The notes under the pieces: model-generated
What the model saw: only the letters and a program-made list of their open reading frames with translations
The model's database searches: none
What the model was told of the DNA's origin: nothing
Part shown: piece after piece, positions 10,552-53,613 of the stretch
Layout: every line of letters starts with the position of its first letter
Numbering within the stretch: position 1 is the stretch's first letter
Source of the DNA: Brevibacterium sp.
GTDB lineage: Bacteria; Actinomycetota; Actinomycetes; Actinomycetales; Brevibacteriaceae
DNA: 64,000 bases
Reading direction: 5' to 3'
Assembly: GCA_030457025.1 (NCBI GenBank)
Contig: JAKDSA010000009.1
Coordinates: forward strand, 1 to 64,000
Made by a program: the position numbers and the translations under genes

Positions 10552-10862
10552 GTATTCTCCTTGTTCGTAACCGGCACGCGGACACCCTCGAAGTATGAGG
10601 GCGGAAAGCCCGCGTCGATCCGGTGGATATTGACTTGGACATCCCATGGATCCAAGCCGGTCATCGATCGGGGCCCACGGAACCGACGTGTTCGTGCACG
10701 ATCTTCCGGAAGCCACTACCGAGGACCGAAACGTCCATGGCATGATTGTCCACTCTCAAGTCTACCGCAGATGCCCCGTTTCCCAGTCGAGACGCGTGCC
10801 ACCCGGGTCTGCCGTGGAAAACGAGCAGCCTGGGCGCGTATACAGGGCGCTGGGAAGACGAA
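10552..10862 (-). other. Long pnp upstream region, no gene
   Basis: 311 nt between the rpsO terminator and the pnp start hold no convincing ORF. On the minus strand a TAGACT that could be a -10 element lies about 190 nt before pnp, implying a long untranslated leader containing short inverted repeats. PNPase leaders are often autoregulated; no specific motif was recognised. Confidence 0.4.
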
Positions 10863-50092: not shown

Positions 50093-50820
50093 AACGATTC
50101 CTCCTTCGCATCGTGCGTCGTTTGCAGGCGGAAGCTTCTCCGGTGGTGAATGCTGGGGCCGGAATCGGCGATGCCCCGACGATGTTTGATGGTTCCGTAT
50201 CCGACATTCGACTCCCAACCATACTGGGGGTGTGCCTGCGCGAGAGCGATCATCGCCTCGTCACGGTGGACTTTGGCGACGATACTCGCCGCGGCGATGA
50301 CCGGAACACTGCCGTCGCCTTTGATCACGGTCCTCACCTGAGGCAGATCGAGGTCTGCAGCGGACCCGAATGTCCCCAGGCAGTCGAGCGTGAGTGGAGC
50401 CGACAGCCAGTCATGTTTGCCGTCGAGGAGCACCATCGTCGACGGTGGAAAGCTCGCTGAGCCGAGGAGAGGCACCAGCATATCGCACAGTGCCCGACGA
50501 CCGGCCAAGTTCAATGCCATGGTCATTCCGAGTTCGTCGAGTTCGTTCGGGCTCGTCGAACCCACAGCCGTGGCCCGCGCCCACCCAGTCACACGAGCGG
50601 TCGCAGTTTGACGCGACAGCGCGCTCAACTGCTTCGAATCATGAATTCCCTCGGGCACCTCGGCGGTGGTCAATGTTGTCAGGTCGAAGAGGGCAACGCC
50701 CACGCTGACCGGTCCCGCCAGTGCCCCCCGACCGACTTCGTCGATGCCGATGACGCACTCATAGCCTTCTGCCAGCAGGGCGCGTTCAAGGCTGAGGTCG
50801 TGCAATCCTGCCTGTGCCAT
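50089..50820 (-). CDS. rnhB: Ribonuclease HII
   Basis: 243 residues. The active-site DE pair lies in GIDEVGRGALAGPV (residues ~26-39); VLLDGKHD, VIKGDGSVPVIAAASIVAKVHRD supply the other acidic residues. It cuts RNA in RNA-DNA hybrids and single ribonucleotides in DNA. The ATG overlaps the lepB stop by 1 nt (TGATG). Confidence 0.96.
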   Translation of the reverse strand: MAQAGLHDLSLERALLAEGYECVIGIDEVGRGALAGPVSVGVALFDLTTLTTAEVPEGIHDSKQLSALSRQTATARVTGWARATAVGSTSPNELDELGMTMALNLAGRRALCDMLVPLLGSASFPPSTMVLLDGKHDWLSAPLTLDCLGTFGSAADLDLPQVRTVIKGDGSVPVIAAASIVAKVHRDEAMIALAQAHPQYGWESNVGYGTIKHRRGIADSGPSIHHRRSFRLQTTHDAKEESL

Positions 50821-51524
50821 CAGCTGCCGGTGATTCCTTCGGGAGCGGGAACGTCAGCGAACACCGCTTCCGGGGTGGACATCCAATTGAAGTGTTCGAA
50901 GGGCCAGTTGATGAGGAAGACGGTTCCCACCACATTGTCTTCGGACACATAGGGCTGCGTGTCGACGTGATACCGGGAGTCAGCGGAGTTGCTGCGATTG
51001 TCGCCCATCACCCAGTAGTGGCCTTCCGGCACGGTGACGTCGAATTCCATCTCCGAGGGGGCAATGCCGTCGTCGAGGTATGTCTCATCGATGGGTTCGC
51101 CGTTGACGAGGATGCGTCCCTGCCCGTCGCAGCATTCGACGGTGTCGCCACCGACGCCGATGACGCGTTTGATCAACTGGTTGCCCCCGTCAGAGGGAGC
51201 CAATCCGAGGAATTCGAGGACTGGGTTGGGCTGATACTCCGAAACCTCTTCAGGCGTCAGCCAATGGTCGGGGTCGTCGAAGACGATGATGTCGCCGCGG
51301 TCGGCCGGTCCGAACCGAGGCGCCAGCTGGTTGACGAGGACCCGGTCGTCGATCTGCAGGGTCTCCATCATCGAGCCCGAGGGGATGTAGAACGAACGGA
51401 CGACCCAGGTCTTCAGAGCGGTGGAGATGAGAATGGCGACGAGGATGATCACTGCGGTCTCGAGCAGGCCCCGGAGGAATCTCTTCGAGGCTGAAGGTGG
51501 GGAAGCTTCTGATTCGGCTGACAT
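50820..51524 (-). CDS. lepB: Signal peptidase I, first copy
   Basis: 234 residues from ATG 51524. One N-terminal membrane helix (TAVIILVAILISTAL) is followed by the catalytic Ser in YIPSGSMMETL (Ser51) and the general-base Lys in LIKRVIGVGGD; the MGDNRSNSADSR box is present. It removes signal peptides from exported proteins outside the membrane. A GTG nine codons up is possible but lacks a Shine-Dalgarno. Confidence 0.94.
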   Translation of the reverse strand: MSAESEASPPSASKRFLRGLLETAVIILVAILISTALKTWVVRSFYIPSGSMMETLQIDDRVLVNQLAPRFGPADRGDIIVFDDPDHWLTPEEVSEYQPNPVLEFLGLAPSDGGNQLIKRVIGVGGDTVECCDGQGRILVNGEPIDETYLDDGIAPSEMEFDVTVPEGHYWVMGDNRSNSADSRYHVDTQPYVSEDNVVGTVFLINWPFEHFNWMSTPEAVFADVPAPEGITGS

Positions 51525-51603
51525 TCGTTCGCTTTCGCATCGGACCACAGGTTCCGCAGAGGGACTGAAATGAGCGTACCAGCACCTCGTCGCGGCACCT
51601 TTC

Positions 51604-51653: not shown

Positions 51654-52295
51654 TCAGTCGACCGAGGAGCCATGTCCGATCACGGGTCCGATGACACGGT
51701 CGAGAGGAATGAATCCGCCACCGGGTCTGCCCATCAGCGCGCGTGAATCTGCGGAGTTGTTGCGATTGTCGCCCATCACCCACATCGTGTCGGCGGGGAC
51801 TTCGATCGAGAACTCGGCAGCCGAGGCCGGGTGCGGTGCGTAGTCCTCGTCGAGCGGTTCGTCGTTGAGCAGCAGACGGCCCTGCGCGTCACAGCATTGG
51901 AGCGTGTCTCCGCCGACTGCGATGACGCGTTTGACGTAGTAGACGTCTCGACTTCCGAGCCCGACCCACGATCCGACCTTCTGCAGCGGAGTCGGCAGAG
52001 CATCGTCGACGAAGGATCCGCGCCCGTCGAAGACCACGACGTCTCCGCGTTGGATGTCTGAACTCAGCGCGTCGGGTCGCCACACGGTGATCTCGTCGCC
52101 GACGTGAAGGGTCGGCTGCATCGATGCGCTGGGGATTGTGAACCGTTGGATGATGAATCCGCGGACACACCCGCCGATGACGATGATGAGGATCACAATG
52201 ACGGCGATGGTCTTCCAGAAGCGGCCCGAATACAGAAAACGCGACCCGAAGGTCGCGTTTTCATGATTCTGCGGCACAGCGTGATCATTGCCCAC
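51654..52295 (-). CDS. lepB: Signal peptidase I, second copy
   Basis: 213 residues if started at GTG 52295; GTG 52277 is equally possible and neither has a strong Shine-Dalgarno. A membrane helix (TIAVIVILIIVIGG) precedes the catalytic Ser in TIPSASMQPTL and the Lys in YYVKRVIAVGGD; MGDNRNNSADSR is present. It is paralogous to the next gene. Tandem lepB genes between rplS and rnhB are common in actinobacteria. A terminator-like hairpin lies inside its 5' coding region (52236-52261). Confidence 0.9.
   Translation of the reverse strand: MGNDHAVPQNHENATFGSRFLYSGRFWKTIAVIVILIIVIGGCVRGFIIQRFTIPSASMQPTLHVGDEITVWRPDALSSDIQRGDVVVFDGRGSFVDDALPTPLQKVGSWVGLGSRDVYYVKRVIAVGGDTLQCCDAQGRLLLNDEPLDEDYAPHPASAAEFSIEVPADTMWVMGDNRNNSADSRALMGRPGGGFIPLDRVIGPVIGHGSSVD
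52236..52261 (-). terminator. UUCG-capped terminator-like hairpin inside lepB 5' end
   Basis: On the minus strand AAAACGCGACC-TTCG-GGTCGCGTTTT is a perfect 11-bp stem with the extra-stable cUUCGg tetraloop, ending UUUU then CUGU. It begins 51 nt after the rplS stop, where an rplS terminator is expected, but is in frame within lepB codons for ENATFGSRF. Confidence 0.8.
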
Positions 52296-52311
52296 AGTGC
52301 CAGGCAATGAA

Positions 52312-52653
52312 TCAGGCCTTTTCGCGGATGCGCGCAGCCTTGCCGCGCAGTTCGCGCAGATAGTATAGCTTCGCGCGACGAACGTCACCGCGAGCGAGGA
52401 CTTCGAGCTTCTCGACGATGGGCGAGTGCACCGGGAAGGTGCGCTCGACGCCGACGCCGAAGCTGATCTTACGAGCGGTGAAGGTCTCGCGGACTCCGTC
52501 ACCCTGGCGACGGATGACGATTCCCTTGAACACCTGGATACGCGAACGTGATCCTTCGATCACCCGAACGTGAACGTTGAGGGTGTCACCGGGGCGGAAA
52601 TCAGGAACGTCAGTCTTCAACGAGGCTGCGTCAACAACATCAAGCTTCTGCAT
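52312..52653 (-). CDS. rplS: 50S ribosomal protein L19
   Basis: 113 residues, family length. L19 core: [26 protein letters not shown] and [17 protein letters not shown]. It sits at the 30S-50S interface. A GGAG Shine-Dalgarno lies 8 nt before the ATG, and a long structured leader precedes it. Confidence 0.98.
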
Positions 52654-52660
52654 TGTGTTT

Positions 52661-52804
52661 CTCCATGTGTCCCTGCTTCAGGTCGAGGACACGCATATCG
52701 GACCGGTTGGACCGGTGATTGGATCGTCTGTCGGGATCGCTCCCCGAGATTCTCCGATGACGACACCGGAGAACGGTCTTGGGCATCCATCCCCCTGAAG
52801 CAGG
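52661..52804 (-). promoter_or_regulatory. Structured RNA leader candidate of rplS
   Basis: On the minus strand CCTGCTTCAGG (52794-52804) and CCTGAAGCAGG (52672-52682) form an 11-bp closing helix around 111 nt. Inside are two hairpins: CGGAGAA/TTCTCCG (52750-52773) with extra pairing at its base, and ACCGGT-CCA-ACCGGT (52702-52716). The closing helix ends 7 nt before the GGAG Shine-Dalgarno of rplS. This junction-like layout resembles autoregulatory ribosomal-protein leaders. Confidence 0.55.
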
Positions 52805-52827
52805 TGAATGCCAACAAACGCGACGGT

Positions 52828-53613
52828 CTATTCTGTCATGGATTCGTCACCGGACTCAAACCGTTCCAAAAGGGCCCGGTCGTGCTTGTCCAGACCCCTG
52901 AGCTCGGCGAGCAGATCGGGCCTGACCTCGGCGGTGCGTTCAAGCCTCCGGTCGCGGCGCCACCGTGCGATCGCACCGTGGTTTCCGCTGAGCAGGATCT
53001 CGGGCACGTCCCGGTCCCTCCAGCTGGCGGGCTTCGTGTAGATCGGGTATTCGAGGAGCCCGTCCTCATGGCTCTCCTCTGTCAGTGACTCCGGGTTGCC
53101 GATGACTCCGGGAATGAGGCGGCTGACGGCTTCGATCATCACCATTGAGGCGACTTCTCCCCCGTTGAGCACATAGTCTCCGATGCTCATGGGGCGCAGA
53201 TCGAAGTGATCAGCCGACCAGTCGATGACCCGTTGGTCGATGCCTTCGTATCGCCCACATGCGAACACGAGGTGCTCGGCACCGGAGAGGTCCTCGGCGA
53301 TGTGCTGGTTGAACACCGGGCCGGCGGGGCTGGGCACGATGAGGATCGGCTTCTGTGCTCCCTCGGGTCCCCCACCGGCGCTGTTCCCGCCGAGGACGTG
53401 CTCAAGTGCCAGCGCCCACGGCTCAGCCTTCATCACCATTCCAGCACCCCCGCCGTACGGCGAGTCGTCGACCGTGTTGTGGCGGTCGAACGTGAAATCG
53501 CGCAGGTCGTGCACGTTCAGGTCCAGCAGTCCCTGATCGACGGCCTTGCCGATGAGGGAGAGCTTCAGCCCAGAAAGATACTCCGGGAAGATGGAGATGA
53601 CGTCGATCTTCAT
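52828..53613 (-). CDS. trmD: tRNA (guanine-37-N1)-methyltransferase
   Basis: 261 residues from ATG 53613. SPOUT-fold signature: [41 protein letters not shown] and [11 protein letters not shown], the knotted SAM site. It methylates G37 next to the anticodon to prevent frameshifting. It follows rimM by 8 nt. Confidence 0.97.

Follow-up and report, generated by a model that had tools for sequence, protein, structure and literature searches.

Between trmD and the gene that we take, from its sequence and from its trmD neighbour, to be rplS, the minus strand of the 64,000-nt stretch of Brevibacterium DNA analysed here (the window) holds a gap of 174 nt. The question raised by this locus is whether the RNA of the gap is folded and, if so, whether it controls the synthesis of ribosomal protein L19. 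The gap begins after the trmD stop codon (TAG, 52830-52828), and the leader folds at -71.7 kcal/mol vs -59.6 +/- 4.3 kcal/mol for its shuffles (z = -2.84; 1 of 200 shuffles was equally good). The original prediction had described a structured gap of ~170 nt in which a perfect 11-bp helix closes 111 nt containing two hairpins, and both the gap and the helix were found as described. The helix joins CCUGCUUCAGG (52804-52794) to CCUGAAGCAGG (52682-52672) and encloses positions 52793-52683, with the two further hairpins at ~52773-52750 and ~52716-52702, while 7 nt separate its 3' arm from a GGAG motif. Downstream of rplS, the same strand carries two consecutive ORFs (50820-51548 and 51654-52502) that by eye resemble signal peptidase I, the start of the upstream one being uncertain.

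Plan of the leader RNA

Leaders were collected from 57 Brevibacterium genomes, 80 named contigs, 62 loci of a class sample and 80 of the 147 other-genus genomes of an order sample; the named contigs nearest to the locus are themselves Brevibacterium. Placed side by side, many of these leaders share one plan, consisting of promoter-like letters, hairpin A, a spacer of variable length, hairpin B, a Shine-Dalgarno sequence and rplS (Table 1). The consensus loops of the relatives are UG-CCNCNGG-G for hairpin A and A-CCNGNGG for hairpin B. Since both arms of the 11-bp helix lie largely within these loops, the helix is at least partly a loop-loop contact and not simply a closing stem: it can be divided into a 7-bp loop-loop core (52800-52794 x 52682-52676) and four pairs on its outer side. 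Thus, the pairing predicted as a long-range closing helix is real, but in the relatives' leaders its core joins two hairpin loops. In 184 of 185 distinct leaders, loop B ends 16-32 nt ahead of the codon that aligns with residue 1.

The outer stem P1 has UUUG/CAGA vs UUCG/CGGA in part of Brevibacterium, and it is absent from the top 22 pairs of a covariation scan of the genus. At the place of the possible -10 element, the relatives have TGGCAGAAT, TAGACT or TAAACT. A strict consensus promoter scan returned 0 promoters and reported neither the -35 nor the -10 candidate, so the rplS promoter is kept as putative.

Table 1. Features of the trmD-rplS region, in window coordinates
Feature	Position	Strand	Basis
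Possible -35, TTGAGT, inside the trmD end	52854-52859	-	By eye; TTGA-like letters in 55 aligned Brevibacterium leaders
Possible -10, CAGAAT; last base shared with the trmD stop codon TAG	52830-52835	-	By eye
Outer stem P1, CGUUUGUU (52820-52813) x GACAGACG (52732-52725)	52725-52820	-	By eye, Brevibacterium alignment
Hairpin A: stem 52812-52806 x 52788-52782; inner pairs 52804-52803 x 52792-52791; loop with 52800-52794	52782-52812	-	Covariation
Loop A, CUUCAGG, 5' side of the 7-bp loop-loop helix	52794-52800	-	Column pairs 62-269, 64-266, 61-270
Variable hairpin, UUCUCCG ... CGGAGAA	52750-52773	-	Read off the sequence; length and letters vary in the genus
Small hairpin, ACCGGU-CCA-ACCGGU	52702-52716	-	Read off the sequence
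Hairpin B: stem 52692-52687 x 52672-52667; closing pair 52684-52675; loop with 52682-52676	52667-52692	-	Covariation
Loop B, CCUGAAG, 3' side of the 7-bp loop-loop helix	52676-52682	-	Covariation, loop-profile counts
Likely Shine-Dalgarno, GGAG, 2 nt past stem B and 7 nt ahead of AUG	52661-52664	-	By eye
rplS (ribosomal protein L19, 113 aa)	52312-52653	-	ORF; relatives in 57/57 genus genomes

Covariation of stems and loops

Covariation was assessed in an alignment of 76 distinct leaders (A1) made with MAFFT from sequence only, in which rows L162-L220 had been chosen by a score of at least 13 for complementarity between A and B. Nine of the 80 order leaders fell below this score (L140, L142, L143, L155, L161, L169, L192, L208 and L213); three of them, L140, L143 and L161, pair at all seven places by a later sequence profile. 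Six of the 82 listed leaders were excluded by hand (L136, L159, L170, L172, L194 and L197), and further leaders were dropped because they nearly duplicated others or because of their length. The seven loop-loop pairs are standard pairs in 97.9% of cells vs 89.9 +/- 0.6% after shuffling; changes on both sides occur in 38 cells vs 6.7, with a covariation score of 0.252 vs 0.097. When the 3' side is displaced by one, two or three columns, pairing falls to 23-48%. For the whole model of 19 pairs, 84.1% of cells are paired vs 71.4% in shuffled alignments.

An unguided all-against-all scan of the 113 well-filled columns (G-test with APC; null from 60 alignments simulated along a FastTree tree) placed only pairs of the model in its top seven. 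These are 56-80 of stem A, which ranks first, 62-269, 64-266 and 61-270 of the loop-loop helix, and 259-275, 258-276 and 260-274 of stem B. Four of them (56-80, 62-269, 259-275 and 64-266) exceed every simulated value, and the other three have E between 0.07 and 0.23; the eighth pair, 275-284, lies outside the model (E 0.57). By parsimony, double changes number 9 at 62-269, 3 at 64-266, 1 at 61-270 and 0 at 63-267 in the loop-loop helix, and 5 at 56-80, 12 at 258-276, 4 at 259-275 and 7 at 260-274 in the stems. An unpaired state is involved in 7, 1, 1 and 0 changes at the same four loop-loop pairs and in 2, 17, 11 and 13 at the same four stem pairs. The stems also contain unpaired cells, which make up between a third and half of all cells for the outer pairs of stem A; four stem B pairs have 14 to 27 such cells out of 76.

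Within Brevibacterium the signal is weaker, because independent lineages are too few among the 55 distinct leaders of the genus. Stem A provides the highest-ranking pair there, 52809 x 52785 (E = 0.03, 30 simulations), and the loop-loop pairs are not significant in this genus (E = 4.6) and follow a split of 36 to 19 leaders.

The loops were also counted by sequence profiles, which were derived from A1 and placed each loop without requiring it to pair; divergent loops left 73 of the 282 leaders below the profile cut, many of these being leaders without the element. Among the 200 distinct leaders, all seven loop pairs form in 181 and six in 19, vs a mean of 95 and a maximum of 109 leaders with all seven when loop B is shuffled. 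Outside Brevibacterium, pairing is Watson-Crick at all seven places in 128 of 159 leaders vs 86 (maximum 96) after shuffling. In 51 of these non-Brevibacterium leaders loop A departs from the consensus, and all seven pairs are Watson-Crick in 20 of the 51, or standard in 34 when G-U is included; through G-U pairs, 33 of the 51 would match the consensus loop B as well. Compensated rare forms occur at nearly fixed places (CCACAGA/UCUGUGG, CCGCAGA/UCUGCGG, CCACUGG/CCAGUGG and CCUCGGA/UCCGAGG). The class leaders L281, L282 and L286 carry CCACAGA/UCUGUGG, CCACGAG/CUUGUGG and CCGCAGA/UCUGCGG, that is, joint changes where the rest of the set is fixed.

The original prediction had made its case depend on compensatory changes and on the presence of the region in relatives; the A1 scan and the relatives' leaders provide both. 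The folded RNA is well supported, and a structure conserved with compensatory changes ahead of a ribosomal-protein gene, the pattern by which ribosomal-protein leaders are recognized, is what was found here.

Distribution and relation to known leaders

A covariance model built from A1, which contains stems A and B only and not the loop-loop helix, matches 49 of 128 class genomes, once in each. All 49 matches lie directly ahead of rplS on the same strand and none precedes another gene; their ends range from 5 nt within the L19 match to 60 nt ahead of it (49/49), L19 positions having been found in 127 of the 128 genomes. When 40 leaders from class genomes without a match were searched alone, 12 matched at E <= 0.002 and 28 did not, so the element is present in at least 61 of the 128 genomes. 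In a phylum sample, 12 of 197 genomes match, all 12 of them within the class. Leaders with a profile match and at least six loop pairs were counted as profile-positive, which applies to 57/57 Brevibacterium genomes, to 76 of the 80 other order leaders and to 55 of 77 named loci (L034-L110). The four order negatives are L142, L166, L169 and L196, of which L166 has the plan by eye, and the 22 named negatives include Blastococcus, Pseudonocardia, Saccharopolyspora, Nocardia and Corynebacterium. The element is conserved across 18 families of the order. It reaches beyond Micrococcales, the group named for a covariation search in the original prediction, to Streptomyces and Kribbella.

A different conserved rplS leader was seen on contigs of Nocardia, Corynebacterium and Antrihabitans and in family f21, which together with its kin that carry this leader presumably belongs to the Mycobacteriales. 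It is an irregular hairpin, GGAGCACGAACC(G/A)GUCGAGC ... GCCGC(CA/UC)GGUUCCUCUGCUC, that ends ~25-36 nt before rplS. A simple pattern search finds it in 30 of 35 leaders, some near-identical, namely in 25 of the 30 loci L291-L320 (within L291-L318) and in L050, L069, L084, L093 and L094. Exchanges such as GAGCA/UGCUC and GGAUA/UUUCC suggest that this hairpin, too, may covary. No Rfam family matches it in 16 loci.

The Rfam 15 families likewise give no match at the Brevibacterium leader, at gathering or at permissive thresholds. Elsewhere in the window, an Actino-pnp RNA (RF01688) is matched with 57.1 bits at 10656-10730 on the minus strand. The L19_leader of Firmicutes (RF00556, a presumed L19 binder with a gathering score of 36 bits) is not matched in the window, nor in 52300-53200 at E <= 10, nor in 16 actinobacterial loci (E <= 5) or three genomes of the genus; as a control, the model was run on 14 genomes and matched in Bacillus subtilis only. 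The lack of a Firmicutes-type consensus noticed at the outset thus extends to the relatives. Both leaders stand upstream of rplS, but the RF00556 model spans 42 positions, whereas the leader described here has two hairpins with loop anchors 52-168 nt apart.

Leaders of L20 and S15 provide examples of long-range or pseudoknotted RNA beside a ribosome-binding site at which a ribosomal protein acts, and as commonly described they differ from the present leader in their proteins and sequences. Table 1 of a survey contains actinobacterial L31 leaders and L17 leaders of Actino- and Proteobacteria but no actinobacterial L19 leader, and the same source reports Firmicutes-type L19 leaders in Flavobacteria (PMC7247131). 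Like the leader described here, the L31 and L17 leaders are candidates from this phylum that were identified through covariation as ribosomal-protein leaders; however, they precede other genes, the five L31 motifs are single hairpins, and no loop-loop contact is described for them in the relevant part of that survey (PMC7247131). An actinobacterial L19 leader is not named in the available portions of the sources covered by a non-exhaustive search (PMC7247131, PMC2864571, PMC3848588, PMC10931766, PMC11109978 and PMC6429828), and a word search of the accessible text of PMC8632094 gave zero occurrences. The leader is placed here as a candidate L19 leader with a structural class of its own.

Competing explanations and proposed control of L19 synthesis

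The leader is probably an actinobacterial L19 autoregulatory RNA that acts on translation initiation through a kissing-loop fold. We infer L19 binding, repression and the step controlled from the position of the leader, from the gene directly downstream, which encodes L19, and from known ribosomal-protein leaders. Transcription of rplS would start at its own putative promoter at the trmD end, placing hairpin A near the 5' end of the transcript and hairpin B just ahead of the Shine-Dalgarno sequence, with the loops paired over 7 bp as covariation supports. L19 in excess over rRNA would bind and stabilise the loop-loop complex. With hairpin B thereby kept at the site where ribosomes enter, loading of the 30S subunit would be blocked and less L19 would be made; once rRNA takes up L19, the complex would open and translation could resume. 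A transcription attenuator should show a terminator-like site (GC-rich hairpin and U run); there are 0 in 52600-52920, which fits translational control.

The same leader with the same purpose might instead work as a nested long-range duplex of 9-13 bp in which hairpins A and B are minor. ViennaRNA gives this duplex as the window leader's minimum-energy fold, and RNAalifold predicts no other structure for the 76 leaders, neither program being able to form a pseudoknot. Conservation extends to the two extra pairs of the duplex (G59-C273 in 194 of 197 leaders). However, it would open stems A and B at their loop ends, and pairs of exactly these stems are among the seven that covary best, which makes it quite improbable as the working fold. 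As the nested duplex is favoured by energy and its extra bases are conserved, a two-state switch is conceivable, in which L19 would choose between two forms of the 7-bp core, a kissing complex and an extended 9-bp duplex whose formation opens both stems at their loop ends. Among the bases of the extended duplex, U58 stands opposite a purine in 172 of 197 leaders, with C-G in 6 more, and the stem B pair that uses column 274 is pyrimidine-purine in 60 of its 62 standard pairs, a bias less marked in its neighbours (259x275, 28/62; 258x276, 27/59). On the other hand, the same 194 leaders use C273 to close hairpin B as well, and stacking within the kissing complex may be the reason why the purine is kept. 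Such a switch is therefore regarded as a tentative possibility.

A conserved rplS leader that does not respond to L19, but instead affects mRNA stability or processing or senses another ligand, is rather unlikely. Structure and place are observed and the ligand only deduced, and cis regulators of ribosomal proteins need not bind one, as a survey notes in the part concerned (PMC7247131). However, the element precedes rplS and no other gene in 49/49 class matches, and ribosomal-protein leaders are the usual kind of element at such a place (PMC7247131). Chance structure of GC-rich DNA has next to no probability: shuffles of the window leader still average -59.6 kcal/mol, but conservation in 18 families, covariation against two kinds of null and the constant placement at rplS contradict it.

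According to the part on this operon of an E. coli-centred review of 2024, the regulation of the trmD operon (rpsP, rimM, trmD, rplS) is so far without information, a rare case among ribosomal-protein operons (PMC10931766). A candidate regulatory RNA can now be placed before the last gene of this operon, and it is widespread in the class Actinomycetes, including Streptomyces. If L19 is bound, the long-range loop-loop complex would add to the structural solutions of ribosomal-protein leaders and, together with the leaders of Nocardia and Corynebacterium and of Firmicutes, would suggest that L19 leaders have arisen several times.
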